In this document: positions 653-18,629 of the stretch, in pieces
Position numbering within the stretch: the first letter of the stretch is position 1
Layout: each line of letters begins with the position of its first letter
Assembly: GCA_026706345.1 (NCBI GenBank)
Contig: JAPOYX010000008.1
Coordinates: 1-47,656, forward strand
From: Gemmatimonadota bacterium
GTDB lineage: Bacteria; JAAXHH01
Direction: 5' to 3'
Length of the DNA stretch: 47,656 bases
Made by a program: the position numbers and the translations under genes
The notes under the pieces: model-generated
Seen by the model: the letters and a program-made list of their open reading frames with translations, nothing else
What the model was told of the DNA's origin: nothing
Database searches by the model: none

Positions 653-744
653 CGTGGACTTGCCGGCAGTGTTGGTTCACATACGTCATGGATTGAGTGG
701 ATCCACATGCCGGCCCACATACTGAGTTGTTGAGGAACTGGCAA

Positions 745-760
745 GTTACAATACTGCAAC
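745..760. promoter_or_regulatory. Imperfect palindrome, candidate MarR operator
   Basis: GTTACAATACTGCAAC is an inverted repeat whose 8-base halves match at six positions. It lies 92 bases upstream of the marR start codon on the minus strand. MarR proteins usually bind 16-20 bp palindromes in their own promoter, so autoregulation is plausible. The assignment rests on position and symmetry only. Confidence 0.25.
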
Positions 761-872
761 CCGGGGAGCAACAACAATCGCGGGGTTAAAGTCGGAAGAG
801 CCTGATAGTTGAAACCCCGGCCCGCCCTGTGATCGGGGCCCTGTCAACCCCCAAACCGCGGAAACCGACTGG

Positions 873-2766: not shown

Positions 2767-2817
2767 GTAGTCGGTTTCCTTTGAGATATGACGCCCGGCC
2801 GAACCCACGGGCGCGAC

Positions 2818-4464
2818 TTAAAATACGACGGGTTCTTCGTACGGCCCGTGCACTTCCTGCAGCACGCCCACGATTTCTCCCAGCGTCGCATAGGCCCTGA
2901 CCGCGGCAAGCATGGCCGGCATGACGTTCGCCCCCTCCCTCAGGGCGGCTCCCAGGACATCGAGGGCCTTGCCCGCCTCGCGTTCGTCCCGCCGCCGACG
3001 GACCGATCCGAGACGGACGCGCTGTTCCCTTTCGATGCGCGGGTCGATCCGCAGCGTCTCGATGTCGCCGTTCCTCGGGGAGGCGAATTCATTTACGCCG
3101 GTAATGATCCGGTCCCGGTTTTCGATCTCCGCCTGGTGACGATTGGCCGCGGCCATGATCTCCCGCTGGGGAAAGCCCGCCTCGATGGCCGCCACCATGC
3201 CCCCGAAGGCGTCGATCTTCTCGAAATAGGCCTCGGCTTCTTCTTCCAACCGGTCCGTGAGGGATTCGACGTAGTATGATCCGCCGAGGGGATCGACCGT
3301 ATCGGCCACGCCGGTTTCGTGGGCGATGATCTGCTGGGTTCTCACGGCGATGCGGGCCGCCTGTTCCGACGGCAGGGCGTAGGCTTCGTCCAGCGCGTTG
3401 GTATGGAGCGACTGGGTGCCGCCCAGCACGGCGGACAGGGCTTCCACGGCCGTGCGCACGATGTTGTTCTCCGGCTGCTGCGCCGTCAGGCTGCATCCCG
3501 CCGTCTGGGTATGGAATCGGAGCATCCAGGACCGCTCCGACCGGGCGCCGTACCGCCGGCGCATGTGGCGCGCCCAGATCCGCCTCGCGGCCCGAAACTT
3601 CGCGACCTCTTCGAAGAAATCGATATGGGCGTTAAAGAAGAAGGACAGCCGCGAAGCGAACCGATCGACGGCCAGGCCGGCGGCCAGGCAGGCGTCGACA
3701 TAGGCGAAACCGTCCGCCAGGGTGAAGGCGAGTTCCTGGGCGGCCGTAGCACCCGCCTCCCGGATGTGGTATCCGCTGATGCTGACGGGATTCCACTGAG
3801 GTACCCGTTCGGTGCAGAAGACCACCGTATCGGCGACGAACTTCAGGGCCGGGGCGGGTGGGCAGATCCACTCTTTCTGGGCGATGTACTCCTTCAGGAT
3901 ATCGTTCTGCAGCGTGCCCCTCAGCGCGGTCCAGGGGATATCCCGTTTCTCCGCCACGGCCAGATACATGGCCAGCAGCACCGCGGCGGGGGCGTTGATC
4001 GTCATGGACGTGCTGATCTTGTCCAGCGGGATGCCGGAAAACAGGATCTCCATGTCCTCCAGCGTGTCGACGGCGACCCCGCATACGCCCACTTCCCCTT
4101 CCGACGACGGGTGGTCGGAATCGAAACCCATCAGCGTGGGCACGTCGAAGGCCACGGACAGGCCGTCCTGTCCCTGATCCAGAAGGAACTTGAAACGGGT
4201 GTTGGTATCCGCCGCAGAACCGAAGCCGGAGAACTGCCGGATGGTCCACGGGCGGCCCCGGTACAGGGAAGCGTGGACGCCGCGCGTATAGGGGAACTGT
4301 CCCGGGAAACCTTCGTCCCGCAGGTAGTCGGAGCCGGACCGGTCACCCGCCGTGTACAGCTCCTCCACCGGAGACCCGGAGATGTTCGTAAAGGACGGCT
4401 TGCGAAGGGGGCGTCCGTCCTGTTTCCCGTCCCTCGACTTTTTGCTGTTCAGGGTCTCGTCCAT
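2818..4464 (-). CDS. Coenzyme-B12 acyl-CoA mutase, large (catalytic) subunit, isobutyryl-CoA-mutase-like
   Basis: A 548-residue TIM-barrel subunit of the methylmalonyl-CoA mutase superfamily, which carries out radical carbon-skeleton rearrangement of acyl-CoA. Conserved blocks include [12 protein letters not shown] (71-82), [10 protein letters not shown] (101-110), [10 protein letters not shown] (152-161), [11 protein letters not shown] (228-238, with catalytic His233) and TQSLHTN. Counting from His233 and the QNDILKE block, the residues matching Propionibacterium MCM Tyr89 and Arg207 are Phe78 and Gln196. This Phe/Gln pair is reported for isobutyryl-CoA mutases; Ala105 argues against the 2-hydroxyisobutyryl type. 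The C-terminal cobalamin-binding domain is absent and no small subunit is encoded nearby, so the partner must lie elsewhere. Automatic annotation would probably say methylmalonyl-CoA mutase; I am sure of the superfamily and moderately sure of the substrate class. Confidence 0.9.
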
Positions 4465-4752: not shown

Positions 4753-5406
4753 ATGAATACACGCGAGATACCCCTCTTCCCGCTCAATACCGTGCTGTTC
4801 CCGGGCATGCCCCTGCACCTGCATATTTTCGAACCCCGCTACAAGGAAATGGTGCAGAAGTGCCTGGACGAGAAACTGGAATTCGGCATTCTTCTCCTCC
4901 ACGAGACCCAGTTATGCCAGGTGGGCTGTACCGCCCGGATCACGCAGATATTGAGACAGTTCGAAAACGGGTCCATGGATATCCTCACCGAGGGACGGAG
5001 ACGATTCCGCGTCCTTGACGTCCTGAACCGCGAATCCTACCTGGAAGCGGTCGTGGAGTACTTCGACGACGACAGCGAGGACATCCCCTCCGACCTGCTG
5101 AAGAAGGTGCTGAACGCCTACCAGAAGATGATCAGGCTCCAAACCAGGGGCGTGGGCGCCATCCGCGGCATCTTCGACCCGGTACACTTCTCCTTCATCA
5201 TCGCGTCGACGATCGATATGGTCCTGCAGGAACGGCAGTCCCTGCTGGAACTGACCTCGACCACGGAACGGATCAGGAAACTCGACACGGCGCTCCTCGA
5301 TACGACGCAGAAGCTGAACGAGCAGGAAAAGATGAAACGCCTAGCCGACATGAACGGACATGGCAAGCACGAGCCCGAAGAAAGCGAATCCGCAGACGAC
5401 GATTAG
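4753..5406 (+). CDS. LON substrate-binding (PUA-like) domain protein
   Basis: A 217-residue stand-alone version of the N-terminal domain of Lon protease. The opening MNTREIPLFPLNTVLFPG and then HIFEPRYKEM are the family hallmark. After the beta-rich domain (to about residue 100) comes a helical region and a charged, acidic tail. No ATPase or protease domain is attached, so it is not Lon. Such proteins are widespread and poorly understood; a role in substrate recognition or protein quality control is only assumed. ATG at 4753 is chosen because the conserved domain begins there; an in-frame ATG at 4687 would add 22 residues of non-conserved sequence. The 3' end overlaps thiT by 47 bases. Confidence 0.85.
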   Translation: MNTREIPLFPLNTVLFPGMPLHLHIFEPRYKEMVQKCLDEKLEFGILLLHETQLCQVGCTARITQILRQFENGSMDILTEGRRRFRVLDVLNRESYLEAVVEYFDDDSEDIPSDLLKKVLNAYQKMIRLQTRGVGAIRGIFDPVHFSFIIASTIDMVLQERQSLLELTSTTERIRKLDTALLDTTQKLNEQEKMKRLADMNGHGKHEPEESESADDD

Positions 5407-5995
5407 TCCCGGAAGCACGCGCCGCCTGACGGCCATGGCCGTGGCCGTGGCGCTCGCGGTCCTCCTCGGTTTCATCCGCCTGTACCGGCTGCCCTGGGGT
5501 GGCTCGCTTTCGCTGAAGATCCTGCCTCTGGTCTACCTGGCCATCACGTATGGCCCCAGGGCCGGCATGGCCGGCGGTCTGGCGGCGGGCCTCGTCACGC
5601 TGATCGTCGATCCCGTCATACTGCACCCCATCCAGGTTGCCCTGGACTACCTGCTCCCCTACGCCATCCTGGGGATCATCGGATTCTTCCCCGCCTGGCC
5701 CAGGCTGGGAATCCTGGTGGCCGGCGCACTCCGGCTGGCCAGTCACGTGGTGTCCGGGGCGGTCTATTTCGCGGCCTTTACGCCCCCGGAACTGAACCGG
5801 CAGGTTTACGAACTGGTCCGGGATTACACGGGGATCATCCTTTCCCCCTTGCTCCAGCAATGGACGGCGCCGTGGCTCTACGCCCTGCTGTATAACGCCA
5901 GTGTCGTCGTCCCCGAGACCGTCCTGATGATACTTTTCGCCCCCCCGCTGATTCGCCGGCTCAACCGCGGCTTCGCGCCGGACCGGTACGCGTGA
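5360..5995 (+). CDS. thiT: ThiT-family thiamine transporter (ECF S component)
   Basis: A 211-residue membrane protein with about six hydrophobic segments. It carries the ThiT/YuaJ pattern: LPWGGSLSLKILPLVYLAI (about 44-62), YGPRAGMAGG, then DPVILHPIQVALDYLLPYA, where tryptophan/tyrosine and His residues of this loop line the thiamine site in known ThiT. ThiT normally works with the shared EcfT transmembrane and EcfA ATPase subunits, none of which are in this window. The gene starts inside the end of the LON-domain gene, so it is translated from the same message. I see no TPP riboswitch in the upstream gap, which is unusual for ThiT. Thiamine would serve the TPP-dependent E1 pair downstream. 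Confidence 0.8.
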   Translation: MASTSPKKANPQTTISPGSTRRLTAMAVAVALAVLLGFIRLYRLPWGGSLSLKILPLVYLAITYGPRAGMAGGLAAGLVTLIVDPVILHPIQVALDYLLPYAILGIIGFFPAWPRLGILVAGALRLASHVVSGAVYFAAFTPPELNRQVYELVRDYTGIILSPLLQQWTAPWLYALLYNASVVVPETVLMILFAPPLIRRLNRGFAPDRYA

Positions 5996-6104
5996 ACCGG
6001 GGCCGGGGCCGGATTCCCGTCCCGGATCAGGCCGGCCGGCCCGGGGTACTGCGTCCGTCGCGGCCGAACGCTGTGGACCGGCCGCTACGCGGGTATTTTT
6101 CCTC

Positions 6105-6133
6105 TTGCCTGCCTGCATGCCCGCCCATATTAT
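6105..6133 (+). promoter_or_regulatory. Predicted sigma-70 promoter for the E1 alpha/beta operon
   Basis: TTGCCT (6105-6110), a 17-base spacer and TATTAT (6128-6133), about 75 bases before the E1 alpha start. The -10 matches five of six. It sits in the 211-base gap after thiT, so the dehydrogenase genes can be expressed independently of it. Confidence 0.45.
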
Positions 6134-6206
6134 GAGACAGTTCACCCGGACCGTATTACCGGTAACGCCACTGCTTACGCCTCTTCCATTCAGGAGCGTT
6201 TGAACC

Positions 6207-7226
6207 ATGTCGGAATCCCTGGAGCTGATCACCACCTCCAGCGACGAGGGGACGCTGCCGCTGCCCGAGCCGCTGTGCCGGGAAATATACGAGAAAATGC
6301 TGACCATCCGGCGATTCGAGGAAGCCGTACTGGAGATATACACGCAAGGCCTGATGCGCGGTCTCGCCCACCTGTACATCGGCCAGGAAGCCTCGGCGGT
6401 GGGCATCTGTTCCGCCCTGAACGACGACGATTATCTCACCAGTACCCACCGCGGGCACGGACACCTGATCGCCAAGGGCGGCAAGGTCGACCGCATGATG
6501 GCGGAAATGATGGGCAAGGTGGACGGTTACAACCGGGGCAAGGGCGGCACCATGCATATCGCCGACATGAGCCTGGGGATCCTGGGCGCGAATGGGATCG
6601 TCGGGGGCGGCATGGGCATGGCGACCGGGGCGGCCTTAAGCGGCAAGATGCGTAATTCCGGACAGGTGGCCGTGTGCTTCTTCGGCGACGGCGCCATCAA
6701 TCAGGGCGCCTTCCTCGAATCCGCCAACCTGGCTTCCATCTGGTCGCTGCCGGTGCTCTTCGTCTGCGAGAACAACCATTATGGGGAGTATACGGCCGCC
6801 AGCGACGTTACGGCCGTCAGGGAACACGTGGCGGAACGGGCTGCGGGATTCGACATGCCGGCCATGGTGGTGGACGGCAACGACGCGGTCGCCGTGCACC
6901 AGACCGCGGTGGAGATGGTGAAACGGGCCCGGGCCGGCGAGGGGCCGTGCCTGATCGAGAACAAGACCTACCGGTACCGCGGGCACCACGTGGGCGACGG
7001 CGATCCGGAGAAGACCTACCGGACCCAGGAGGAGACGGACACCTGGCTCGCGAAAGATCCTATTCCCCGCTTCGCCCGGCGCATGATGAAGGCGGGCATG
7101 GTCGACGAGGCGGAACTGGAGTCCATCGATACCACCATTACCGGACTGGTGGAAGACGCCGTGGCTTTTGCGAATGACTCCCCCTATCCCACCGCCGACG
7201 AGGTGACCGAACATGTCTACGCCTGA
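6207..7226 (+). CDS. Pyruvate/acetoin/2-oxoacid dehydrogenase E1, alpha subunit
   Basis: A 339-residue TPP-dependent E1 alpha chain. It decarboxylates a 2-oxoacid and passes the acyl group to a lipoylated E2. The TPP/Mg motif runs from GDGAINQGAF (160-169) to ENN (188-190), and the phosphorylation-loop/active-site histidines lie in STHRGHGH (79-86). Length and the AGEGPCLIE and YRYRGHHVGD segments fit the PdhA/AcoA type. AGGAG lies upstream of the ATG at about 12 bases. The beta subunit gene overlaps its 3' end. No E2 or E3 gene is nearby, so pyruvate, acetoin and branched-chain specificity cannot be separated; PdhA/AcoA-like is the best guess. Confidence 0.9.
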   Translation: MSESLELITTSSDEGTLPLPEPLCREIYEKMLTIRRFEEAVLEIYTQGLMRGLAHLYIGQEASAVGICSALNDDDYLTSTHRGHGHLIAKGGKVDRMMAEMMGKVDGYNRGKGGTMHIADMSLGILGANGIVGGGMGMATGAALSGKMRNSGQVAVCFFGDGAINQGAFLESANLASIWSLPVLFVCENNHYGEYTAASDVTAVREHVAERAAGFDMPAMVVDGNDAVAVHQTAVEMVKRARAGEGPCLIENKTYRYRGHHVGDGDPEKTYRTQEETDTWLAKDPIPRFARRMMKAGMVDEAELESIDTTITGLVEDAVAFANDSPYPTADEVTEHVYA

Positions 7227-8214
7227 GCGCCGGATCACCTACGGCGAAGCCGTCCGCGAGGCCATCGCGGAGGAAATGCGGCAGGACGAGACCGTCTTCT
7301 TCATGGGCGAGGACGTGGCCGCGGCGGGCGGGGTTTTCAAGGTCACCGTGGGACTGCTCGACGAATTCGGCGAAGAACGGGTGCGGGACACGCCCATCTC
7401 GGAAGCGGGCATCATGGGCGCGGGCGTGGGGGCCGCCCTGACCGGCATGCGGCCCATCGTCGAGATCATGTTCGGCGACTTCATCACCATCGCCATGGAC
7501 CAGATCGTCAACCAGGCGGCCAAGATGTGCTACATGACGGGCGGTCAGGCCAGCGTGCCGCTCACGATACGGACCACCATCGGCGCGGGCCGTTCATCGG
7601 CGGCACAGCACTCCCAGAGTCTCCAGGCCTGGCTGTCCCACATTCCCGGGGTCAAGGTGGCCATCCCCTCCACGCCGGCGGACCTGAAGGGACTGCTCAA
7701 GACCGCCGTCCGCGACGACAACCCCACTGTCATCTACGAAGACAAGATGATGTACGCCCTGAAGGGACCGGTGCCCGATGACGACGACCATACCATTCCC
7801 TTCGGCGTAGCCGACATAAAGCGGGAAGGGTCGGACGTAACCCTCGTCGCCACTTCAAGCATGGTGCACACCGCGCTCAAGGCAGCGGACATGCTGGATA
7901 AGGAGCGAATCAGCGTGGAGGTGGTGGATCCCAGGACGCTGTCGCCGCTCGATATGGATACGATCATTCGTTCCGTCGAGAAGACCAGCCGCGCCGTGGT
8001 GATCGACGAAGCCTACCAGAGTTACGGCGTCACCGGCGAACTGGCCTCCCGGATCGCCGACGAGGCCTTCGACTACCTGGACGCCCCCGTCAAGCGGCTG
8101 GGCGCCATGGACGTTCCCGTACCCTTCAGCCCCGGGCTGGAGCCGGAAACCATCCCCGACGAGGGAAAACTGGTCCGGACCGTTCAGGGCCTCTTCCACG
8201 ACGTCCCCATATAG
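7213..8214 (+). CDS. Pyruvate/acetoin/2-oxoacid dehydrogenase E1, beta subunit
   Basis: A 333-residue transketolase-like beta chain that forms the alpha2beta2 E1 with the preceding product. The pyrimidine-binding domain holds the catalytic Glu in DTPISEAGIMGAGVG (about residues 59-73), and the E1-beta signature FGDFI follows. The His of QHSQ (about 132-135) matches the active-site His. A C-terminal transketolase domain follows from about residue 200 (VTLVATSSMVH). Its ATG lies 14 bases inside the end of the alpha gene, a typical coupled arrangement. Substrate is uncertain for the same reason as the alpha subunit. Confidence 0.9.
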   Translation: MSTPERRITYGEAVREAIAEEMRQDETVFFMGEDVAAAGGVFKVTVGLLDEFGEERVRDTPISEAGIMGAGVGAALTGMRPIVEIMFGDFITIAMDQIVNQAAKMCYMTGGQASVPLTIRTTIGAGRSSAAQHSQSLQAWLSHIPGVKVAIPSTPADLKGLLKTAVRDDNPTVIYEDKMMYALKGPVPDDDDHTIPFGVADIKREGSDVTLVATSSMVHTALKAADMLDKERISVEVVDPRTLSPLDMDTIIRSVEKTSRAVVIDEAYQSYGVTGELASRIADEAFDYLDAPVKRLGAMDVPVPFSPGLEPETIPDEGKLVRTVQGLFHDVPI

Positions 8215-8242
8215 CCGTATAGAAACCGGAGCATAATCTTAA

Positions 8243-9544
8243 ATGAACCTGTGGCGCCTGCCCCTGCACTGGAAGATCATCATCGGGTTGATTCTCGGAT
8301 TGCTATACGGGATCCTCTCCGCGGCCATGGGCTGGAGCCGGTTCACCGAGGACTGGATCACGCCCTTCGGCGACATCTTCCTGAACCTGCTCAAGGTCAT
8401 CGCCGTACCCCTCGTGCTGGGCTCGCTCATCATGGGCGTCGCCTCCCTGTCGGACGTGAGGAAACTGTCCCGCATCGGGGGCCGTACGATTGCCATTTAC
8501 ATCCTCACGACGACCGTCTCCGTGACCATCGGGCTTTTCATGGTCAATCTGCTCGAACCGGGGACGGGCGTGCCCCAGGGATTGCAGGAACAGCTGCAGG
8601 CCGCCTACCAGTCCGACGCGGAATCGGACATGGAACGGGCCGAAACGGCCAGGGAGCGGGGACCGCTTCAGGTCTTCGTGGACATGACGCCCGATAACAT
8701 CTTCGGCGCGCTGAGCAACAACGGGCGCATGCTCCAGGTCGTCTTCTTCTCCCTCCTCTTCGGCATCGCCCTGGTATTGATTCCGTCCGACAAGAGCAAA
8801 CCCCTGGTGGATTTCTTCTCCAGCCTCACGTCGGTCATCATCCAGATCGTGAACATGATCATGGTCGTCGCCCCCATCGGGGTCTTCGCCCTGATCGCCA
8901 AGACCATCAACCAGGTGGCGAAAGACGACCTGTCCGCCGTCGGAGAACTCCTTGGAGCCCTTGGCTTCTACTGCCTGGTGGTCCTCCTGGGACTGCTGAT
9001 CCACGGCATCGTCACCTACCCGGTCATGCTCAAGATCTTCTCCAACATGAAAATCGGGCGGTTTTTCCGGGGTATCGCCCCGGCCCAGCTCCTGGCCTTC
9101 TCCTCCAGTTCCAGCGGGGCCACGCTCCCCGTCACCATGGATGTGAGCCAACGGAATCTCGGAGTCTCGAAAGAGGTTTCCTCCTTCGTCCTGCCTCTCG
9201 GCGCCACGATCAACATGGACGGCACCGCGCTCTACCAGGCCGTGGCCGCCGTGTTCATCGCCCAGGCCCTCGGCCTCGGGCTCGACATGACCGCCCAGCT
9301 GCAGATCGTCCTCACGGCCGTCCTCGCCTCCATCGGCACCGCCGCGGTGCCCGGCGCGGGCATCATCATGCTGATCATCATCCTGGAGACCATCGGCGTG
9401 CCGGCCGCGGGCATCGCGCTGATCCTCGGCGTAGACCGCATTCTCGACATGTGCCGCACCGCGGTGAATGTCACGGGCGACGCTGCCGTGGCGACCTCGG
9501 TGGACGCCATGGAGAAACGGGCCGCCGCCAGACCGTCCGCCTAG
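8243..9544 (+). CDS. Dicarboxylate/amino acid:cation symporter (DAACS, GltP/DctA family)
   Basis: A 433-residue membrane transporter for glutamate/aspartate or C4-dicarboxylates, driven by Na+ or H+. The helical-hairpin-1 serine motif is clear (AFSSSSSGATLP, about 288-299), the cation site NMDGTALYQ follows (about 327-335), and the last helices carry the substrate-binding segment DRILDMCRTAVNV. An insertion rich in Glu and Arg (about 117-138) lies in the loop after the third helix, where family members vary. It follows the E1 beta gene by 28 bases and probably shares its transcript. Glutamate transport would fit the glutamate dehydrogenase at 16118, but specificity is not shown. Confidence 0.9.
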   Translation: MNLWRLPLHWKIIIGLILGLLYGILSAAMGWSRFTEDWITPFGDIFLNLLKVIAVPLVLGSLIMGVASLSDVRKLSRIGGRTIAIYILTTTVSVTIGLFMVNLLEPGTGVPQGLQEQLQAAYQSDAESDMERAETARERGPLQVFVDMTPDNIFGALSNNGRMLQVVFFSLLFGIALVLIPSDKSKPLVDFFSSLTSVIIQIVNMIMVVAPIGVFALIAKTINQVAKDDLSAVGELLGALGFYCLVVLLGLLIHGIVTYPVMLKIFSNMKIGRFFRGIAPAQLLAFSSSSSGATLPVTMDVSQRNLGVSKEVSSFVLPLGATINMDGTALYQAVAAVFIAQALGLGLDMTAQLQIVLTAVLASIGTAAVPGAGIIMLIIILETIGVPAAGIALILGVDRILDMCRTAVNVTGDAAVATSVDAMEKRAAARPSA

Positions 9545-9621
9545 CGTTCACGACAGACCGCTCGCATTCGAGTCAAAACAACGAAAGTTCGGGGCTTTTC
9601 GAAATGCGGGCGTGATGAATA

Positions 9622-10992
9622 TCACTGCCGCCGGCCGTATTCCTCGTAGAACCAGGCCGCGCTGTCGATTCCCCGGTAGAAATTGGGCAGGTGGAACTTC
9701 TCGTTGGGCGCGTGGGCGTCGCAATCGGGCAGGCCGAAGGCCATCAGGACCGTGGGCAGGCCCAGTATCTCCTCGAACATGGCCACCACCGGGATGCTGC
9801 CGCCCTCCCGGATGTAGACGGGCTCCTTGCCGAAGCCCCGGGTGATGGCCTCGTGGGCGGCCGTCACCGCGGGGTGGTTCCGCGCCGTGAGGACCGGCTT
9901 CCCCGTACCGTGACGGATGACGTCCACCTTGACCGAGGGCGGCGCAAGGCTTCTGACATAGTCTTCGAATGCCCGGGCGATCTTGTCGGGGTCCTGGTTC
10001 GGCACGAGGCGCATGCTCACCTTGGCCATGGCCTTCGACGGGATCACGGTCTTCGATCCCTCTCCCGTGAACCCTCCAAGCATCCCGTTTACATCGAGCG
10101 TCGGCCGCGCCCACAGGCGCTCAAGGGTCGAGTACCCCTTTTCGCCCGTGGCTTCCGGCAGGCCCAGCTTCCCGGCGAAGCCTTCCTCGTCGAAGGGCAG
10201 CGCGGCAAGCGACGCACGTTCTTCGCCGTCCAGGGGAAGAACGTCATCGTAGAACCCCGGCACCGTGATCCTTCCGTCGCCGTCCACCATCCTGCCCAGC
10301 ATCTCCGACAATACGTTCAGGGGATTGGGGACGGCGCCGCCGTAGACGCCCGAATGCAGATCTTTGTTGGGTCCCTCGAGCCGGACCTCCATGTAGGCCA
10401 TGCCTCGCAAGGCATACCCGATCGAGGGCTGCTCGTAGTCGAACATGGACGTGTCGGAAATGACCACCACGTCCGCCGCCAGTTCTTCCCTGTGGCTTTC
10501 CAGGTAGGCTTCCAGGTTCTCGCTCGACACCTCTTCCTCGCCTTCGATCAGCATACGGACGTTCACCGGCAGCCGGCCGTTCTCCCGCAGGTGGGCCTCC
10601 AGCGCCTTCACGTGCAGCCAGACCTGGCCCTTGTCGTCTGTCGATCCGCGGGCGTAGAGATTGTCGCCCCGGATCACGGGATCGAAGGGATCGCTCTCCC
10701 ACAGTTCAAAGGGTTCCGCGGGCTGAACGTCGTAATGACCGTAGAATAGGACGGTGGGCTTTCCGGGCGCGCCAAGCCATTCCGCCGTCACGATGGGATG
10801 GCCGGCCGTGGGGTTTACCGCCACGTGGTGCATGCCGATGCGTTCCAGTTCGCCGGCAAGGAAACGGGCGCATCGGCGCAGATCCTCGCGGTGATGGGGA
10901 TGGGTGCTCACGCTGGGTATGCGGAGGAAGTCCTTCAGACCCTCCAGGGCCCGGGGCCGCTGGGCCTCCAGGTAGGATATGACGTTTTTCAT
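9622..10992 (-). CDS. M20-family metallopeptidase (dipeptidase-like)
   Basis: A 456-residue di-zinc peptidase of the M20 carnosinase/DapE-like type, expected in the cytoplasm and acting on dipeptides. Metal ligands are visible: His86 in FYGHYDVQP, Asp119 in STDDKG, Glu152 near IEGEEEV (with the general-base Glu beside it), Asp180 in VISDTSMF, and a C-terminal His in CDAHAPNE. The dimerisation lid domain lies at about 200-320 (DLHSGVYGGAVPNP). Length and domain order match complete family members. It is convergent with the symporter gene and divergent from the channel gene. ATG at 10992 is the only sensible start. Confidence 0.92.
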   Translation of the reverse strand: MKNVISYLEAQRPRALEGLKDFLRIPSVSTHPHHREDLRRCARFLAGELERIGMHHVAVNPTAGHPIVTAEWLGAPGKPTVLFYGHYDVQPAEPFELWESDPFDPVIRGDNLYARGSTDDKGQVWLHVKALEAHLRENGRLPVNVRMLIEGEEEVSSENLEAYLESHREELAADVVVISDTSMFDYEQPSIGYALRGMAYMEVRLEGPNKDLHSGVYGGAVPNPLNVLSEMLGRMVDGDGRITVPGFYDDVLPLDGEERASLAALPFDEEGFAGKLGLPEATGEKGYSTLERLWARPTLDVNGMLGGFTGEGSKTVIPSKAMAKVSMRLVPNQDPDKIARAFEDYVRSLAPPSVKVDVIRHGTGKPVLTARNHPAVTAAHEAITRGFGKEPVYIREGGSIPVVAMFEEILGLPTVLMAFGLPDCDAHAPNEKFHLPNFYRGIDSAAWFYEEYGRRQ

Positions 10993-11308
10993 GGTCCACG
11001 CTTCCGTTCATAGGGTTCAAATGACCAGGGGCAGGGCACCGGCCGTATGTGAGACGACCGGACCGGCACGTACTTTCGGCAGGGTACAGGAACAGGGGAC
11101 GCCGGTGCAAGGGAAAAACAAGAGAAGAAACCGTTTCGGCCGGCGTGCGGGACGGAACATCCGAGATGCGGCTTTCACGTACGGGCCGGCCGTGCGGACT
11201 TGACAGTACGTGAGGATGGTCTTAGACTGGTAATCCGACATACGGCGTCCGGCGCATCAGGTGATTCCAAAGGCGACCGGACCGTTTCCGGAACAACGGG
11301 ATAACGGC
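10993..11308. other. Divergent intergenic region, M20 peptidase / K+ channel
   Basis: This 316-base gap separates two divergently transcribed genes. It contains the channel promoter at 11200-11228. An in-frame GTG at 11261 could extend the channel by 16 residues. I see no riboswitch or small gene. The promoter for the peptidase must also be here, but no clear boxes were found on the minus strand. Confidence 0.5.
11200..11228 (+). promoter_or_regulatory. Predicted sigma-70 promoter for the K+ channel gene
   Basis: TTGACA (11200-11205), a 17-base spacer and TAGACT (11223-11228). The -35 is perfect and the -10 matches four of six. It lies 80 bases upstream of the ATG at 11309. Confidence 0.5.
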
Positions 11309-13003
11309 ATGCGGACCTTCATCAGACAGTACCTGGGCGTGTTGCGCACGACGATCGGATCGGGGAACCTCAAGTTCTTCTACCGGTTCTTCATCTTCCT
11401 CTTCCTGTTGATCCTGGTCTATACGTTTCTGTTTCACGAACTCCAGGAAATGGAAGGGCGGGAACATACGTGGTTCACCGGATTCTACTGGACACTGGTC
11501 ACGATGACCACGCTCGGGTACGGTGACATCGTCTTCACCAGCGACCTGGGCCGGATTTTCTCCCTGTGCGTCCTCATGACCGGACTGACGACGCTGATCA
11601 TCGTGCTTCCCGTGGCCTTCGTCGAGTTCATCTACCGGCCGTGGCTCAGCGCCCACTCCATCGCGCGCGCGCCCCGGTCGCTGGAATCGACCTTCCAGGA
11701 CCACGTGGTCATCACCCATCACGACGAGGTGACGAGTTCCCTTGCCGCCAGGCTCAAGCAGTACGGGAACGACTATGTATTCATCATACCCGACCTGGAC
11801 GAAGCACTGCTCCTCCACGACCGGGGCCTCAACGTCGTGTACGGCGATCTGGATAACTCGGAGACCTATCGGCACGCGAACGTGGACCAGGCGGCGCTCG
11901 TCGTGGCAACCGGCAAGGATACGCTGAATACCAGCATCGCCTTCACGATCCGGAACATCAACCAGGACATCCCCATCCTGGCCACGGCGAATTCTCCCGA
12001 TTCCGTGGATATCCTCGAACTGGCGGGCTGTACCCACGTGATCCAACTGGGCAAGCAAATGGGGCAGCTCCTCGCCCGGCTCGCTTCGAGCGTGGATTCC
12101 ATGTCCCATGTACTCGGAAATGTCGAAGACCTGATGGTCGCCGACGCGGGCATCGTGGATACCCCGCTCATCGGCAAGACCCTGCGTGAAACGCGTCTTC
12201 GCGAACTGACCGGCGTTACCGTCGTCGGCGTATGGGAGCGGGGCAGGTTCCGCGTGATCGCACCCGACACGCAGCTTACCGAACGGATGATCCTGGTGCT
12301 TTTGGGGACGGAAAGCCAGATCACCTCCTACAACGAACTCTTCGCCATCTACAACGTGTCCGATCCGCCCATCGTCATCATCGGCGGCGGCCGCGTGGGA
12401 CGGTCCGCGGGAGGAACTCTTGCGCAGAGCGGGCTGGACTACCGGATCATCGAGCAGCAAACCGGGCGGATACGCGACGAAAAGCACTACGTGCTGGGCG
12501 ACGCGGCGGATATCGAGACCATGAAGAAGGCCGGCCTCATGGAAGCCCCTACCGTCATCATCACCTCCCATGAAGACGACATGAACATCTACCTCACGAT
12601 CTATTGCCGCAAGCTGCGGCCGGATATCCAGATCATCACGCGGGCGAAAGAGGAACGGAACGTGGAAGCGCTTCACCGGGCAGGGGCCGATTTCGTCATG
12701 TCCTATGCTTCCATGGGGGCCAATATCATTCTGAACCTACTCAAGCGGAACGACATAGTCATGATCACGGAAGGGTTGAATTTCTTCCGTGTCCGGCTTC
12801 CCCTGGAACTGGCCGGCAAAACCATCGCGGAATCCCAGATCTACCCGGAAACGGGCTGCTACGTTGCGGCCGTCTTCACCGGGAAAGAGAGTATCGTGAG
12901 CCCTCCGCCGTCGATGAAGCTGCCCAGCGAAAGCGAGATCCTCCTTATCGGCACGATAGAGGCCGAGAACCGGTACCTGGAGCGTTACGGCAATAAGCTG
13001 TGA
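11309..13003 (+). CDS. Potassium channel with tandem RCK domains
   Basis: A 564-residue two-helix channel subunit. A first membrane helix (about 25-42) and second (about 80-102) flank the pore, with selectivity filter TTLGYGD (67-73). Two full RCK modules (TrkA-N plus TrkA-C) follow. The second has an intact nucleotide loop, IIGGGRVGR, and an acidic EQQ after it. In the first the glycine loop is replaced by ITHHDEVTS, so it may not bind a dinucleotide. Tandem RCK in one chain resembles BK-type gating rings and Geobacter GsuK, which is controlled by nucleotides and Ca2+. ATG at 11309 is chosen over the GTG at 11261 because the extra 16 residues look non-conserved; neither has a strong ribosome site. 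Confidence 0.88.
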   Translation: MRTFIRQYLGVLRTTIGSGNLKFFYRFFIFLFLLILVYTFLFHELQEMEGREHTWFTGFYWTLVTMTTLGYGDIVFTSDLGRIFSLCVLMTGLTTLIIVLPVAFVEFIYRPWLSAHSIARAPRSLESTFQDHVVITHHDEVTSSLAARLKQYGNDYVFIIPDLDEALLLHDRGLNVVYGDLDNSETYRHANVDQAALVVATGKDTLNTSIAFTIRNINQDIPILATANSPDSVDILELAGCTHVIQLGKQMGQLLARLASSVDSMSHVLGNVEDLMVADAGIVDTPLIGKTLRETRLRELTGVTVVGVWERGRFRVIAPDTQLTERMILVLLGTESQITSYNELFAIYNVSDPPIVIIGGGRVGRSAGGTLAQSGLDYRIIEQQTGRIRDEKHYVLGDAADIETMKKAGLMEAPTVIITSHEDDMNIYLTIYCRKLRPDIQIITRAKEERNVEALHRAGADFVMSYASMGANIILNLLKRNDIVMITEGLNFFRVRLPLELAGKTIAESQIYPETGCYVAAVFTGKESIVSPPPSMKLPSESEILLIGTIEAENRYLERYGNKL

Positions 13004-13049: not shown

Positions 13050-16000
13050 CTAGACGTCCCCCGGCTCCCGCTTCGTCGACGCGACGTTTACCCCGAGGGC
13101 GCGCGTCAGCCGCTCGAGTTCGACAGTCAGTGCGGTCCAGGCCTCCTCCGCTCCGTCCAGGCTTCCCTCCCTGCCCATCTGTTCCAGGCGCTGCGCGGCG
13201 TTCACGGTGGCCCGAGCCAGGAAAACTCCGGCAGAACCCTTCAACGTATGGGCATGCAGCCGCAGATCGGCGGCGTTCCCGGAACTGATCGCATCACGAA
13301 TAGCGGACTTCAGCCCCGGGCACTCGGCCACGAAAAGTCCGGCCAGTTCCAGCATCACGCCTTCGTCTCCGCCGAACCGTGTGACGGCCTGTTCCCAATC
13401 GATCACCGCTGAGTCGGTCGCTGCCGCTTGGGTCGCGGCGTCGGGCGGCTGCGCCGCGGCTTCCTCCCCGGACGGTGCGGATACTGCCGCTGAAGGTGCG
13501 GCATCCCGGTGAGCTGCCGGAGGAGCAGCCTCGCCGGAAACCGCCCCTGATCCAGCCGGGACGCCTTCCACCGCCGCGTACAACAGTTGGGCCTGAATGG
13601 GCTTGGACAGATATTCGTCCATCCCGGCCTCCAGGCACTTCTCACGGTCGCCGCGCATGGCGTGGGCCGTCATGGCGATGATGAGGATATGGGCGTCGCC
13701 GGTTTCCAGTCCGCGAATCGTCCGTGTCGCCTCCAGTCCATCCATCCCGGGCATCTGGACATCCATCAGGATCAGGTCGAACGCGCCGGTTTTAAACCGG
13801 TCGACCGCTTCGCTGCCGTTGTTTACCACGGTGACCTCGTGGCCCCTGGACTCCAGCATGAGTACCGCGACGCGCTGGTTCACGATCCCGTCCTCTGCCA
13901 GTAAGATGCGTCGCGGCGGGACCCCTTCCGCCAAGCCATCGGCTCCCTCCTCCAGTGCGGGTCCGCACGTGCCGGCCACCGTTTCCATGATGGCGTTCAG
14001 CAGGTCGGACTGCTTGACGGGCTTGCTGACCGTACAGGCGATTCCGAATGACTTGCCGAAGTCCGGGTCCTCCCGCTGTCTGGCGGAGACCAGCAGGATG
14101 ACGTCAAGGTCTCTTCCGTCGGCGCACTGGTTGATTTCCCTGACGAGGCCGTATTCTTCCATTTCCGGCATGGTTTCGTCCAGCAGGACCAGCTGGATAG
14201 TCTCGCCGCCCTCGCCGGTAAGGGCGGCGAGGGCTTCCACGCCCGTACCCGCTTCCGCCGGTTTCATGGACCATTCGGCCAGCATGTCGACCAGGAACCG
14301 CCGATTGGTGGGATGATCGTCGACCACGAGCACCCGCAGGCCGGACAGCGGTCCGGCGTCGACGCCCGTCTTTTCGGCCACGTCGGGCTGTTTTTGCATT
14401 TCGACGGTAAAATGGAAGGTGCTTCCCCGGTCCACCTCGCTTTCGACCCGGATGCTGCCGCTCATCATCGCAGTCAACTGCGCGCTGATAGCGAGCCCCA
14501 GTCCCGTACCACCGTACTTGCGCGACGTGGAACTGTCCGCCTGGCTGAAAACGTCGAAAATCAGTTTCTGCTTGTCCTCCGGTATGCCGATGCCGGTATC
14601 CGATACCGAGCAGGCCAGCGTGATGGCGTCTTCCGTTTCCGACTTCAGCGCCATGGTCAGGACCACTTCCCCGGAGTCCGTGAACTTGATGGCGTTTCCG
14701 ACCAGGTTGATCACGATCTGGCTCAACCGGCCCGGATCGCCCACGAGACGATCAGGAACGTCCGGAGATACCTGGTAGGCCAGTTCCAGGCCCTTTTCCG
14801 ACGCGGGGATCGACATGGCCTGCACGGTATTGGCGATACGCTCCCGCAGTTCGAAGGGAATCGATTCGAGTTCCAGGCGGCCCGCCTCTATTTTCGAAAA
14901 GTCCAGGATATCGTTCAACAGGCCCTGAAGCGAGCCCGTGGACTGATCGATCAGCCGCATGAATTCCCGCTGCCGGGACGACAGGTCGGTATTCAGCATC
15001 AACTGGGTCATCCCGGTGATCCCGTTGATGGGCGTGCGAATCTCGTGGCTCATATTGGCGAGGAACTCGCTTTTGGCCCTGCTGGCCTCTTCCGCCGACT
15101 CCTTGGCTTCCTGGAGTTCCTGTTGAAACAGGACCATGTCGTGGGCGGTCTGTTCCAGCAGGGCGTTCTGGCGATGCAGCTCGTGGGCGATCCGTGTACG
15201 TTCGGCGTCGATCTGTCCGATCGAACGGGCGTTCCACCAGATCAGGATGTTGAAGGCGATCACGTTGCAGACGACGAAGAGCGAATGGCCGAATTCCACC
15301 CCGTAGAATCCCGCTCTTTCCCCCTGGAACTGCACCCAACCGAGGACGATGGGGATGAGAAAAGCCGCGGGAAGGAGGCGGCGGGCCATGAGACCGCCGG
15401 CCGTGGCGCTGACTAGCGTGGCGGCCGGTTCGCGCCGGGGCCGCGCGCAGAAGATGCCGGCGCACAGGACGCCGAAACCCAGTGCGGTGTTCAGGGTAAT
15501 GGGAATCGCGCCGGAAACCCTGTACAGCACCAGGGTACTGTAAATCGCCCCGGCGAGAGAAAGCAGGGCGATGATCCCGGCGTTCATGACGCAGACGTGA
15601 GACAGCCAGTGTCTCGGACCGCGCAGATCAAGCAGCAGGAGCGCCAGTCCCACCAGCATGAAGGTGAAGGCGGTATGGGGGGCCATGCGGTTGCCGCTGA
15701 GGGACGCTGCGAACAGCCACTCGTCAACACCTCTGCCGCCCAGGTCGAAGTCGAGGAGCTTGACGGCCCCCAGCGCCATGAGCAGGCCCGCGCCGGCGAA
15801 ACCCGTCCATCTGCGATACGTGGAAGCGTTCCTCGGCAACAAGGCGCACAGCGTACCGCCGGCGAGCAGAAAGGCGGCGGCCGTGAGCGGGTTCATGGGA
15901 ACCCGGCCGGGGTTGATCAGGCCCCGCAGATCGGCAAGACCGAACTGCCAGCCGGCGAGCACGAGGACGGAGCACGCGATAACGATGACACTGCACAGGA

Positions 16001-16076
16001 AGGCGGCTTTCTGGAGCAACCGCACCCACGCTGCATCGATTTCCGTCGAAGCCGCATCGATTTCCGTGGAATCCAT
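13050..16076 (-). CDS. Membrane hybrid sensor histidine kinase (HisKA-HATPase-REC-REC-HPt)
   Basis: A 1008-residue multi-step phosphorelay kinase. Residues 20-280 hold about eight hydrophobic segments forming a membrane sensor of unknown ligand. A coiled coil (285-335) leads to HisKA with phospho-His344 in SHEIRTP, then HATPase with N box NAIKF (461-465), G1 DTGIGIP and G2 GGTGLGLAI. Receiver 1 (580-700) has Asp633 and Lys685; receiver 2 (723-840) has Asp772 in [10 protein letters not shown]. After an Ala/Pro-rich linker (841-890) the HPt domain carries His943 in [10 protein letters not shown]. It lies 41 bases downstream of the receiver-glutamate dehydrogenase gene on the same strand, making that receiver its most likely partner. 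The N-terminus contains a 7-residue tandem duplication (STEIDAA twice). Confidence 0.95.
16033..16067. repeat. 21-bp-period tandem duplication at kinase N-terminus
   Basis: GCATCGATTTCCGT occurs at 16033-16046 and again at 16054-16067. The period of 21 keeps the kinase reading frame and doubles the STEIDAA segment directly after the start codon. Confidence 0.85.
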
Positions 16077-16117
16077 GGCCTACCTCCCGGTAAACGCAGG
16101 CCGGTGGCTTTCAGGGG

Positions 16118-17764
16118 TCAGGGGAAGATTCCCCGAAGCAGTTTCGCCTGGGTCACCCGGTTGATCCCCTCGATCAATGCCGAGGTGCGCATATCGATCT
16201 TCTCTTCGGCAGCCCGGCGGACGGTCCGTCCGAAGGCGTCAATGAGGATATTATGCAGCCTGCCGTTGATCTCCTCGAGCGTCCACATGTAGTTCTGGGT
16301 ATCCTGCACCCACTCGAAGTAGGAGACGGTTACGCCCCCGGCATTGCCCAGCACGTCCGGCAGGATGAAGACGTCCTTTTCCCCGAGGATTTCGTCCGCC
16401 TCAAGCGTGGTTGGACCGTTGGCCCCTTCCGCGAGCAGCCTGCACTTCAGCCGGTCCGCGTTGTCGCCGGTGACCTGGTTCTGCAGCGCGGCCGGCGCGA
16501 GGATGTCGCAGGGCAGTTCCAGCAGTTCTTCGTTGGTTACCGCATCGGCCTCGGGATAACCCGCGAGGAAGCGGTTTTCCCCACAGTACTTGAAAACGTC
16601 CTTCAGCGACAGTCCGTTGGGATTGTAGATACCGGTAGTGACGTCGCTTACCGCGACCACCCTGACCCCGTCCTCATCCAGAAAACGCGCCGTATTGCTG
16701 CCCACATTGCCGAAGCCCTGGACCACCGCCGTGGCGCCGTCGAGGTGCATGCCCATATGTTCCGCGGCCGCCTCAATCAGGTAGACCAGGCCGCGGCCGG
16801 TGGCCTCGCGGCGTCCCAGAGACCCGCCCAGCACCACCGGCTTGCCGGTAACCACGCCCGGTACCGTGTAGCCCGCCTGCTGGCTGTACGTGTCCATGAT
16901 CCACGCCATGACCTGCTCGTCGGTTCCCATGTCAGGGGCCGGGATGTCCTTGTCCGGTCCGATGATGTCGATGATCTCCGACGTAAACCGGCGGGTGAGG
17001 CGCTGCAGTTCGCGGCGGGACAGATCGGTGGGATCGATCCGGACGCCGCCCTTGGCTCCGCCGAAGGGCAGGTTGATCAGCGCGCATTTCCAGGTCATCC
17101 ACATGGCCAGGGCGGAAACCTCCCCCAGGTTGACGGCCTCGTGGTAGCGTATGCCGCCCTTGGTCGGCCCCATGGTGAGCAGGTGCTGCACACGGTATCC
17201 GAATACGTTTTCCACGAGGTGGTATTCATCCCGCCGGAAGGGGAGCGTCACGATATGGGTCCGCTGGGGAAAGAGCAGCCGCTCCCGGATGTTCTCGTCG
17301 AGCCCCATGATCTGCGCCGCCTTCAGAAACTGCTGCTGGGCCAGTTTGAACATGGCCGAATCCCATTCGCCGCTACGCGCGCGCATGCGTTCGATAGCGT
17401 AGTGTATGGACCGGGAGAGCAGGGTGGTGTTGGCCTGGGTCTTTACGATGTAATCCTGTGCGCCCGACTCCACGGCCGTGGCGGCCAGCGACACGTCGTC
17501 CAGCCCCGTCAGTATGATGACCGGCAAATCCGGAGCGGCCGCCCGGACGCTATGCAGCGTGTCGAGATCCGCGCTGTCGGGCAGGACCAGGTCCAGCAGC
17601 ACCACGTCGAAAGACTCCTGCTCGATCAGATCCAGCCCTTCCCGGAGCGTTCCGGCCACGTGGAGCCGGGTGGTAAGCCGGCTGGAATCCATGAAATGGC
17701 GTATCAACTGCACGTGCACGGGGTTGTCTTCGATCATCAGGACTTCGATGGTGTTTTCCGCCAT
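16118..17764 (-). CDS. Response-regulator receiver domain fused to glutamate dehydrogenase
   Basis: A 548-residue continuous frame joining two domains rarely seen together. Residues 1-125 are a CheY-like receiver with acidic pocket Glu12/Asp13, phospho-acceptor Asp58 (VVLLDLVLPDS), Thr86 and Lys108. After a linker of about ten residues, 135-548 is a full-length Glu/Leu/Phe/Val dehydrogenase that interconverts 2-oxoglutarate plus ammonia and glutamate. Its active-site residues are present: Lys202 (PTKGG), Lys226 (MTWKC), Lys238 (GGAKGG) and Asp278 (PAPDMG), with Rossmann loop QGFGNVGS (349-356). The domains share one uninterrupted frame without stop or internal start evidence. hisA lies 18 bases upstream and the hybrid kinase 41 bases downstream, so one operon is likely. 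I infer that phosphorylation of Asp58 tunes the enzyme; that is untested. Confidence 0.93.
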   Translation of the reverse strand: MAENTIEVLMIEDNPVHVQLIRHFMDSSRLTTRLHVAGTLREGLDLIEQESFDVVLLDLVLPDSADLDTLHSVRAAAPDLPVIILTGLDDVSLAATAVESGAQDYIVKTQANTTLLSRSIHYAIERMRARSGEWDSAMFKLAQQQFLKAAQIMGLDENIRERLLFPQRTHIVTLPFRRDEYHLVENVFGYRVQHLLTMGPTKGGIRYHEAVNLGEVSALAMWMTWKCALINLPFGGAKGGVRIDPTDLSRRELQRLTRRFTSEIIDIIGPDKDIPAPDMGTDEQVMAWIMDTYSQQAGYTVPGVVTGKPVVLGGSLGRREATGRGLVYLIEAAAEHMGMHLDGATAVVQGFGNVGSNTARFLDEDGVRVVAVSDVTTGIYNPNGLSLKDVFKYCGENRFLAGYPEADAVTNEELLELPCDILAPAALQNQVTGDNADRLKCRLLAEGANGPTTLEADEILGEKDVFILPDVLGNAGGVTVSYFEWVQDTQNYMWTLEEINGRLHNILIDAFGRTVRRAAEEKIDMRTSALIEGINRVTQAKLLRGIFP

Positions 17765-17782: not shown

Positions 17783-18523
17783 CTAGGTGCCGGGGGCCGT
17801 CTGGTACTTTCTAACGGCTTCCGACAGGTCGATCCGGCCTTCGTACAGCGATTTACCGAGCACTACGCCCTCCAGGCCGTCCGCGACAGAACGGGAAGCC
17901 CGTTCCAGGTCGTCCAGCGAAGCCACGCCCCCAGACGCGATCACCCGCATGCCGCTTTCCCTGGCAAGACGCGCCGTAGCCCCGGTATCCAGGCCGTTCA
18001 TCGTGCCGTCCCGGTCGATCTCCGTGTAGATGATCCTGCAGACCCCGGCCGCCTTCATGGCCTTCGCCAGTTCGAGGGAGGAACACGATCCGCCGGCCGT
18101 CCATCCCTTGACCGCGACCCGTCCCGCCTTCGCGTCGATTCCGACGACGATACGCTCCGGCCCCCAACGGTCGACCGACATTCTCACCATTTCGGGGTTC
18201 TCCACGGCCGCCGTACCAAGGATAACGCGGCGCACCCCCAGGGCCAGCCACTTCTCCACCGCTTCGGGCGTTCGAATACCTCCCCCGAGCTGTATCGGGA
18301 TTTCGACCTGTTCGAGCATGCGGAGGACGCTCGACCGGTTCCCCGCGGCGCCGGTGAAAGCACCGTCCAGATCGACCACGTGCAGGTAGGTGGCCCCCTG
18401 CTCCTTCCATTTCAGCGCGATTTCCTCCGGGGACTGGGTATACACCGTCTCGCGGTCCTTCCTGCCCTGGAGGAGCCGGACGCATCGCCCCTGTCGTATG
18501 TCGATGGCAGGGTAGAGCTGCAT
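17783..18523 (-). CDS. hisA: HisA, phosphoribosylformimino-AICAR-P isomerase
   Basis: A 246-residue TIM-barrel enzyme of histidine synthesis that isomerises ProFAR to PRFAR. The N-terminal MQLYPAIDIRQGRCVRLLQG holds the general-base Asp (DIRQG), and the second catalytic Asp lies in YTEIDRDGTM. Phosphate-binding loops LGGGIRT and ASGGVAS are both present. The ATG at 18523 fits the family N-terminus; a longer frame to 18604 adds 27 non-conserved residues. No other his gene is in the window, so hisA is separated from the pathway. It leads the operon containing the receiver-glutamate dehydrogenase fusion. PriA-type dual activity (HisA/TrpF) cannot be excluded. Confidence 0.93.
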   Translation of the reverse strand: MQLYPAIDIRQGRCVRLLQGRKDRETVYTQSPEEIALKWKEQGATYLHVVDLDGAFTGAAGNRSSVLRMLEQVEIPIQLGGGIRTPEAVEKWLALGVRRVILGTAAVENPEMVRMSVDRWGPERIVVGIDAKAGRVAVKGWTAGGSCSSLELAKAMKAAGVCRIIYTEIDRDGTMNGLDTGATARLARESGMRVIASGGVASLDDLERASRSVADGLEGVVLGKSLYEGRIDLSEAVRKYQTAPGT

Positions 18524-18629
18524 ATGGATATCATCCCGCGGAACCCGGTCGATCGGCACGCTTTCAAACCAACAAAAACCTGCTTTAAAGATGACCGGAA
18601 ACACGCCGGCCTGTCAACCCACAAATACC

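Follow-up and report, generated by a model that had tools for sequence, protein, structure and literature searches.

A receiver–glutamate dehydrogenase fusion neighbored by a hybrid histidine kinase in several bacterial phyla

The window, a stretch of 47,656 nucleotides from a Gemmatimonadota bacterium (contig JAPOYX010000008.1 of assembly GCA_026706345.1), encodes a protein in which a CheY-like receiver (REC) and a glutamate dehydrogenase (GDH) are joined in one polypeptide, followed 41 nt beyond its stop codon on the same strand by the start of a hybrid histidine kinase (Table 1). The hisA-like gene preceding the fusion is possibly co-transcribed with it, and hisA matches are confined to loci of the window's phylum (among L002–L018 and L112–L125; L numbers denote rows of the comparison). 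Genes for a potassium channel and a dicarboxylate symporter also lie near the fusion in the window.

Table 1. Features of the locus, with positions in the window
Feature	Positions	Strand	Basis
REC-GDH fusion, 548 aa, single ORF	16118..17764	-	ORF list, Pfam; recurs in other genomes
CheY-like receiver (REC) of fusion, aa 8-117, phospho-acceptor D58	17414..17743	-	Pfam Response_reg
REC alpha-5, short linker and first GDH helix, aa 113-153	17306..17428	-	predicted helices
GDH dimerization/substrate domain, aa 166-294, K202, K226, K238, D278	16883..17269	-	Pfam ELFV_dehydrog_N
GDH nucleotide-binding domain, aa 313-545	16130..16828	-	Pfam ELFV_dehydrog
hisA-like gene, ends 18 nt upstream of fusion	17783..18604	-	annotation; kept apart from the proposed system
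Hybrid histidine kinase, 1008 aa, proposed fusion partner	13050..16076	-	Pfam, conserved neighbor, co-variation
Kinase N-terminal sensor region, aa 1-310, hydrophobic	15147..16076	-	
Kinase HisKA, aa 334-399, H344	14880..15077	-	Pfam and residue alignment
Kinase HATPase_c, aa 446-561	14394..14741	-	Pfam
Kinase first receiver, roughly aa 580-700 (boundaries judged by eye), D633	13977..14339	-	Response_reg stretch
Kinase second receiver (REC2), aa 724-836, D772	13569..13907	-	Response_reg stretch
Kinase HPt domain, aa 910-991, H943	13104..13349	-	Pfam Hpt

All three domains of the fusion score above their Pfam cut-offs: Response_reg with 68.1 bits against 30.2 required, ELFV_dehydrog_N with 175 bits and ELFV_dehydrog with 260.3 bits. 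The receiver has its acidic pair (E12, D13), phospho-Asp (D58), Thr/Ser (T86) and Lys (K108) in place, and the GDH part has K202, K226, K238 and D278, which we take to be the catalytic and substrate residues of the enzyme. The closest solved sequence to residues 136–548 is the hexameric GDH of Thermotoga maritima (1b26), which also ranks first by fold, with 52% identity when the folds are aligned. By its two ELFV domains and this fold the protein classes with the ELFV GDHs; its best NCBIfam models are likewise GDH equivalogs, although it scores 489.6 and 485.8 bits where 620 and 750 are required. The kinase displays the order HisKA-HATPase-REC-REC-HPt and thus, by Pfam, the domain set of a tripartite phosphorelay; its sensor region matches no Pfam family above cut-off and shares 40% identity with its counterpart in the L004 kinase. 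The first-pass annotation had described both an intact receiver joined in one frame to a complete GDH and a same-strand downstream kinase with H344, two receivers and an HPt with H943, and the domain matches, residues and coordinates agree with it on each of these points.

The full fusion is present in 14 of the 16 genomes of the window's phylum, with one further copy cut by a contig end, and a profile scan of genome contigs recovers it in at least some genomes of other phyla. Named strains are represented among the matches listed, for example by Zobellella maritima and Aestuariicella hydrocarbonica. (Some searches of genomes from other phyla used E≤1e-150 and scored the best 3 to 22 first-look candidates per genome.) The assembly that holds the window is split into 293 contigs, and a mis-joined frame had been named beforehand among the things that would undo the first-pass reading. 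That risk did not materialize: because the same fusion recurs in independent assemblies, named-strain records and several phyla, an assembly or gene-calling artefact is ruled out, its probability being negligible. In a quick tree of the GDH domain, which carries long-branch warnings (L202 and L211 among the flagged rows) and was built without nine near-copies or cut rows from the window's phylum, all 45 fused rows fall inside one 48-row branch with an SH-aLRT of 99.

Across the fused proteins, the phosphorylation site of the receiver is kept despite considerable divergence of the domain as a whole. D58 and K108 are invariant (53/53 each), position 86 is T or S in 52 of 53, and E12 and D13 are each found in 52 of 53, with the remaining row being a gap in a contig-cut sequence. 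A comparable constancy marks the neighboring kinases. In an alignment of 39 of them, namely the 38 fusion-adjacent kinases counted below and that of L125, the H-box His (H344) and the Asp of REC2 (D772) are present in all 39, the Asp of the first receiver (D633) in 37, and a His in the H943 column in 36, though this last alignment is approximate and counts L203 and L205, where the HPt match sits in another ORF.

The genomic pairing of fusion and kinase is widespread. A hybrid kinase lies within 300 bp of 38 of the 47 evaluable fusion loci and of none of the 67 evaluable GDH loci that lack the receiver (144 rows in all). In the 38 loci the kinase is downstream on the same strand 31 times, upstream on the same strand six times and convergent once, and it is retained while gene order, sensor type and HPt attachment differ. 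The HPt is part of the kinase in 33 of these; it is a separate gene at L203, L204 and L211, while L205 has an HPt match in an overlapping ORF and L193 one on the opposite strand. The nine evaluable fusions with no hybrid kinase within 300 bp are L005, L007, L011, L188–L191, L194 and L202, all but the last of which fall in, or branch with, the Planctomycetota. Rows with no kinase in view and under 2.5 kb of flank on either side were scored as unknown, comprising 23 REC-less rows and six fused ones (L010, L119, L122, L192, L209 and L210); at the contig ends of L119 and L122 a matching kinase begins. L125, a fusion truncated by a contig edge and with a kinase beside it, was sorted with the REC-less rows and stands outside the 67. 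Among the REC-less rows, a kinase or HPt match occurs 2.1 to 5.4 kb away in L023, L054, L059 and L220. The count leaves aside L002 and L003 (which share contigs with L115 and L121), L187 (which shares its place with L007) and copies retrieved with short flanks, namely L001, L082–L111 and L126–L182; REC-less GDHs from other genomes occur among L097–L111 and L126 and hence lie outside it.

Since the fusion arose few times, perhaps once, these adjacency counts are not independent, and an independent-pairs test of receiver against kinase yields too few pairs to be informative (one on starred branches, three overall). The recurrence of the kinase, together with the finding that no other neighbor family recurs in more than three of 15 lineage groups (42 loci), leads us to reject a chance neighborhood. 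The same finding bears on the direction of information flow. The GDH domain might sense glutamate, 2-oxoglutarate or NAD(P)H and tune the gain or loss of phosphate by the receiver; the fusion would then put a metabolic brake on the kinase or drain phosphate from it as a sink. Such a reversal would suit both the kinase pairing and members whose GDH domain may bind ligand without turnover, but it would leave the kinase with no conserved neighboring output because no other family recurs widely beside the pair; even granting an unlinked output, which it allows, it appears quite improbable.

The kinase is linked to the fusion by descent as well as by position. When the core of the window's kinase is used as the query (scoring the best 36 candidates at most), its best match is the fusion-adjacent kinase in 18 of the 20 searched genomes that have one. 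The adjacent kinase of L193 is not an ortholog of the window's kinase and is still counted within the 38; in the kinase tree the adjacent kinases cluster, yet do not form a single clade. Over 12 genomes, pairwise distances of the kinase core correlate with those of the fused receiver (r 0.90) and of the GDH (0.84), against 0.19 and 0.07, respectively, for a further hybrid kinase from each of them, and 0.38 and 0.37 over all 16 control genomes, with these controls being next-best paralogs rather than one orthologous unlinked kinase. Because any pair of co-inherited genes should show such a correlation and the controls are paralogs, it is read as co-inheritance of kinase and fusion, not as contact. 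Together with the single fused branch and the adjacency in 38 of 47 loci, this co-variation above control answers with yes the earlier question whether fusion and kinase recur together, and so lends partial support to the first-pass interpretation, in which phosphorylation would set GDH activity directly. It also weighs against the receiver being an oligomerization or localization tag whose phosphorylation has no function, as does the constancy of D58 and K108 in receivers that are down to 33% identical to that of the window. Only the nine fusions with no adjacent kinase would fit such a tag, which we consider very improbable.

Within this family the key residues of the GDH domain are conserved with few exceptions: K202, K226, K238 and D278 are each retained in at least 51 of 53 fusions. 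L211 (K202L, D278G) and L202 (K202L, K238M) combine an intact receiver with a GDH domain that is probably inactive; L211 retains a kinase and a separate HPt, and L202 is among those with no hybrid kinase within 300 bp. Given that these two keep the receiver after the loss of catalytic residues, the GDH domain can apparently stay under the relay even where it is probably no longer an enzyme. Both genomes carry other ELFV dehydrogenases, and at least one further ELFV_dehydrog match is found in 25 of the 31 fusion genomes searched. This raises the alternative that the fusion is a regulatory subunit or moonlighting protein, in which phosphorylation decides whether it assembles with a second GDH or some other target and catalysis of its own is secondary, by analogy with GdhA of Thermus thermophilus, a subunit that PMC9570180 describes as regulatory and without catalytic activity. 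However, the near-universal retention of the four residues speaks against it, and the fusion is the only ELFV dehydrogenase in six of the 31 genomes, including that of the window (sole ELFV_dehydrog match at E≤0.001); we regard it as unlikely.

These observations favor, with a probability of roughly 0.7, a two-component output whose effector is the GDH itself. Upon a signal the kinase would autophosphorylate at H344, and the phosphate would pass to a kinase receiver, most likely at D772, then to H943 of the HPt and on to D58 of the fused receiver. As judged from predicted helices at aa 113–130 and 137–153, the last helix of the receiver would run near-directly into the first helix of the GDH, and a change in the receiver upon phosphorylation may thus alter the activity or assembly of the enzyme, which is presumably a hexamer like its solved relatives. 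The stretch from K108 to A150 shows no change in length in any of the 53 fusions. Most of the protein is similarly poor in indels, and because eight of ten control segments are also constant in length (49 of 53 rows), this constancy was dropped as a main argument for rigid coupling.

The sensors of the fusion-adjacent kinases include PAS, GAF, dCache-HAMP, CHASE and YfiR-like domains, or none that is recognized. With the sensor varying from lineage to lineage, the signal probably varies as well, whereas the output remains constant. It seems somewhat favored that one ancestral REC-GDH fusion and a co-inherited kinase core have had their sensor swapped repeatedly, giving rise to a cross-phylum family in which varied signals act post-translationally on the carbon/nitrogen branch point, with one sub-branch being a non-catalytic, regulatory GDH under the same relay. 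An osmotic (potassium-glutamate) signal is only an idea: several of the named carriers are, we take it, marine or halophilic, and no neighbor family of the potassium-channel or dicarboxylate-symporter type recurs across lineages (42 loci, 15 lineage groups).

Control of bacterial GDHs is generally ascribed to gene expression, small-molecule effectors, proteolysis and protein partners. The architecture described here suggests that cells may set GDH up or down directly by a relay instead of through gene expression. If this is true, the fused receiver and its co-inherited kinase would provide a direct, reversible and transcription-free grip on ammonium and glutamate metabolism, as well as a model for receiver control of a multi-subunit enzyme and for sensor swapping with a kept output. 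As the two named strains carry the fusion, the system is open to experiment.

Response regulators with enzymatic outputs include CheB, the REC-GGDEF and REC-EAL proteins, PorX and RegA of Dictyostelium. Like them, the fusion joins an intact-site receiver to an enzyme; in contrast, theirs are second-messenger, chemoreceptor-modifying or phosphatase enzymes, whereas GDH belongs to central metabolism. The kinase shares the HisKA-HATPase-REC-HPt order of the tripartite kinases BarA, TorS and ArcB, with the BarA model scoring best, but falls below all three curated NCBIfam cut-offs (506.5 of 890, 455 of 676.5 and 340.9 of 838 bits, respectively) and differs in its two receivers, its sensors and its GDH-fused receiver neighbor. 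T. maritima GDH has the same fold without a receiver. The GdhA/GdhB hetero-hexamer of T. thermophilus is controlled through a catalytically inactive GDH subunit, resembling L202 and L211, but by leucine and AMP, with no phosphorelay mentioned in the consulted part of PMC9570180. The earlier list of receiver outputs (DNA-binding, GGDEF/EAL, methylesterase) was too narrow, in that bacteria are known to have REC domains joined to standard enzymes of metabolism, as stated in PMC5847659, which cites Galperin 2006 and 2010. Such fusions are therefore known as a kind; a REC-GDH fusion is not described among the literature matches listed, whose coverage stops short of the two Galperin reviews, its likeliest sources, and the word dehydrogenase has no match in the main text of PMC5847659. 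That paper emphasizes that its archaeal fusions are narrowly distributed and names, from metagenomes, thioredoxin reductase and pyruvate phosphate dikinase; the principle of a metabolic enzyme placed under a receiver is the same, but REC-GDH crosses phyla with a recurrent partner kinase.

The fusion gene of the window encodes a receiver (REC; residues 8–117) joined to ELFV dehydrogenase domains (166–294 and 313–545), each above the Pfam cut-off, and all the residues that the first-pass annotation had named in it are present: E12, D13, D58, T86 and K108 in the receiver, and K202, K226, K238 and D278 in the glutamate dehydrogenase (GDH) part. Likewise, the hybrid kinase described as lying 41 bases downstream on the same strand was confirmed by Pfam and a residue check as a protein of 1008 residues with HisKA, HATPase_c, two receivers (REC1 and REC2) and a histidine phosphotransfer domain (HPt), H344 and H943 included; its sensor region matched no family over the cut-off in a Pfam search. 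The fusion is the sole ELFV_dehydrog match in the genome (E≤0.001; 4.49 Mb, 293 contigs), which also encodes a glutamate synthase-family ORF and thus a further possible route to glutamate. The symporter, M20 peptidase and ion-channel/TrkA families beside the pair do not recur as neighbours across lineage groups; a hisA-like gene that stops 18 nt ahead of the fusion may be co-transcribed with it in the window's genus.

Coordinates of the features in the window and in three further REC-GDH loci
Feature	Coordinates	Strand	Remark
Sodium:dicarboxylate symporter-family gene	8243–9544	+	beside pair
M20 peptidase	9622–10992	-	beside pair
Ion-channel/TrkA gene	11261–13003	+	beside pair
Kinase sensor region	15147–16076	-	hydrophobic; ~40% identity to L004 counterpart
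REC-GDH ORF	16118–17764	-	548 codons
hisA-like gene	17783–18604	-	
L211 REC-GDH (G900)	7958–9607	+	5.05-Mb contig
L202 REC-GDH (G887)	5099–6748	-	
L193 locus (G628)	1–4294		REC-GDH on - strand
L193 kinase	2102–4294	-	
L193 ORF with HPt match	1–2052	+	match at aa 580–676

One scan of genome contigs recovered at least 12 full fusions, i.e., 12 of 80 among the matches listed (L002–L012 and L015), and the three domains were Pfam-confirmed in seven further fusions. By title, the metagenome-assembled carriers among the 12 are Gemmatimonadetes, Gemmatimonadota, Latescibacterota, Planctomycetaceae, Myxococcales, Gammaproteobacteria and "bacterium", and the named strains are Zobellella maritima, Rhodopirellula sp. 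JC639, Aestuariicella hydrocarbonica, Halomonas stenophila and Lujinxingia vulgaris. That the fusion is an artefact can be rejected, as the same fusion is found in many genomes, including these named-strain records. Of 16 genomes from the phylum of the window, 14 carry the full fusion, one (G005) a copy cut by a contig end and one (G014) REC-less GDHs only. Five group searches outside this phylum, with 3 to 22 candidates scored per genome and the centre genome included in each count, recovered full-length or contig-cut fusions (E≤1e-150) in 1/369 genomes of the class of Zobellella (the match being Zobellella itself), 2/293 of the order of Aestuariicella, 12/392 of the phylum of Rhodopirellula (one cut), 11/235 of that of Lujinxingia (two cut) and 9/64 of that of the L004 genome. 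Thus, the fusion is patchy in its distribution, being rare in Gammaproteobacteria and commoner elsewhere.

A tree built by a quick method from the GDH domain of 135 rows, without the receiver, places all 45 fused rows in a single 48-row branch (SH-aLRT 99); the other three members of this branch, L013, L014 and L016, are REC-less. Mapping the presence or absence of REC onto this tree takes three changes, e.g., one gain and two losses, with gain and loss indistinguishable there. Beside the fused branch lie GDHs without a receiver from Lujinxingia's phylum (L213–L221, ~58–63% identity), which are candidates for the pre-fusion enzyme.

Across 144 loci, a hybrid kinase lies no more than 300 bp from the fused gene in 38 cases, there is none in 9 and the neighbourhood is cut in 6, the corresponding figures for REC-less genes being 0, 67 and 23; a truncated fusion with a kinase (L125) is counted apart. 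As the fused rows share ancestry, these 38 adjacencies are not independent events. Where the kinase shares the strand of the fusion, it lies downstream (31 loci) or upstream (6); in 1 locus the two genes are convergent. By our own grouping, an adjacent kinase occurs at one or more loci in 10 of 15 lineage groups, and in one of the ten (L193) this kinase is non-orthologous; no other family recurs within 8 kb in more than 3 of the 15 groups (42 loci).

With the HisKA-to-HPt part of the window kinase as query, the fusion-adjacent kinase was the best match in 18 of the 20 searched genomes having one; in G960 it came second by 8 bits, and the kinase beside the fusion in G628 (L193) is another kinase. 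Among genomes with the nested REC-less genes, G070 (L014) has no kinase at E 1e-80, and the best matches in G071 (L016) and G069 (L013) reach 304 and 501 bits; this suggests that the partner kinase was lost together with the receiver for L014 and L016, but not for L013. In planctomycete-type genomes whose fusion lacks a neighbouring kinase, strong matches occur elsewhere in the genome. In the kinase tree, the G066 match groups with the G620 and G824 adjacent kinases (95), the G644, G772 and G820 matches are placed next to gammaproteobacterial adjacent kinases (86), and the G060, G062 and G792 matches have no clear affiliation with adjacent kinases. The adjacent kinases are clustered rather than a single clade (7 changes vs 16.1 in shuffles), with 17 of 20 in a weakly supported 25-row branch (88) shared with 8 others. 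Distance matrices over 20 genomes correlate for the kinase with the fused receiver (r=0.82) and GDH (0.72). In the 12 of these genomes that also provide a control, the adjacent kinase gives 0.90 and 0.84 vs 0.19 and 0.07 for a control hybrid kinase, which over all 16 control genomes gives 0.38 and 0.37, each reached by 9/2000 permutations. As these controls are next-best paralogs, the correlation backs co-inheritance rather than physical contact.

The relay residues are conserved on both sides of the pair. In the fused receivers, D58 and K108 are kept in 53/53, T or S at position 86 in 52/53, and E12 and D13 in 52/53, with one gap in a contig-cut row. The 39 adjacent kinases (the 38 and that of L125) all have the H-box His and REC2 Asp; the REC1 Asp is replaced by Glu in L208 and missing from L193, which makes REC2 the likely receiver of the relay. 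The HPt-position His is found in 36/39, an approximate column that counts L203 and L205, whose HPt match is in another ORF. The kinase itself carries the HPt in 33/38 cases; L203, L204 and L211 have a small separate HPt gene overlapping the kinase gene end, and L205 has an HPt match inside an overlapping ORF. The single-receiver L193 kinase has an HPt match just upstream on the other strand. The sensors differ: PAS (L004), three PAS stretches (L006), GAF plus PAS (L009), YfiR/HmsC-like (L008), dCache-HAMP-PAS (L183), CHASE (L203) and CHASE-PAS (L211), with no sensor family recognised by Pfam in the kinases of the window, L012 and L199.

In the AlphaFold2 model of the fusion (pLDDT 89.5, pTM 0.81), a receiver helix (113–130) is followed by six residues and then a GDH helix (137–153). 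The PDB fold that matches best is that of Thermotoga maritima GDH, aligned over ~410 columns, i.e., the GDH part, and the nearest solved relatives of the receiver are receivers from other signalling proteins. The 43 residues from K108 to A150 are unchanged in length in 53/53; since eight of ten segments likewise show no length change (49 full rows), this fits rigid coupling without proving it.

Two family members have lost catalytic residues of the GDH part, at positions whose roles we take from well-studied GDHs: K202L and D278G in L211, and K202L and K238M in L202. Both retain an intact receiver site, and each of their genomes holds two more ELFV_dehydrog matches. A hybrid kinase and an HPt gene lie directly downstream of L211, and the 11-kb contig of L202 shows no kinase. 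In the GDH tree the two are joined as long branches, so that their sister relation is unsure. These substitutions suggest a relay that acts, in some members of the family, on a GDH-shaped, probably non-catalytic domain. For these two, a regulatory-subunit role, as described for T. thermophilus GdhA (PMC9570180), is more likely.

Taken with the observed architecture, residue conservation, pairing and co-inheritance, the best reading is that a His-Asp-His-Asp relay would start in the hybrid kinase and end on the GDH-fused receiver, where its arrival would alter the enzyme; the phosphotransfer, its effect on GDH and the sign of that effect we infer. As the fusion is the only GDH found in the window genome, direct control of flux would be the simplest outcome there. 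Metabolic enzymes with an attached receiver are already recognised as a type in PMC5847659, which describes the archaeal examples as narrow in spread. Among the papers listed by our literature search, with key reviews outside its coverage, none deals with REC-GDH, which may thus be a new variant within a class whose principle is already known.
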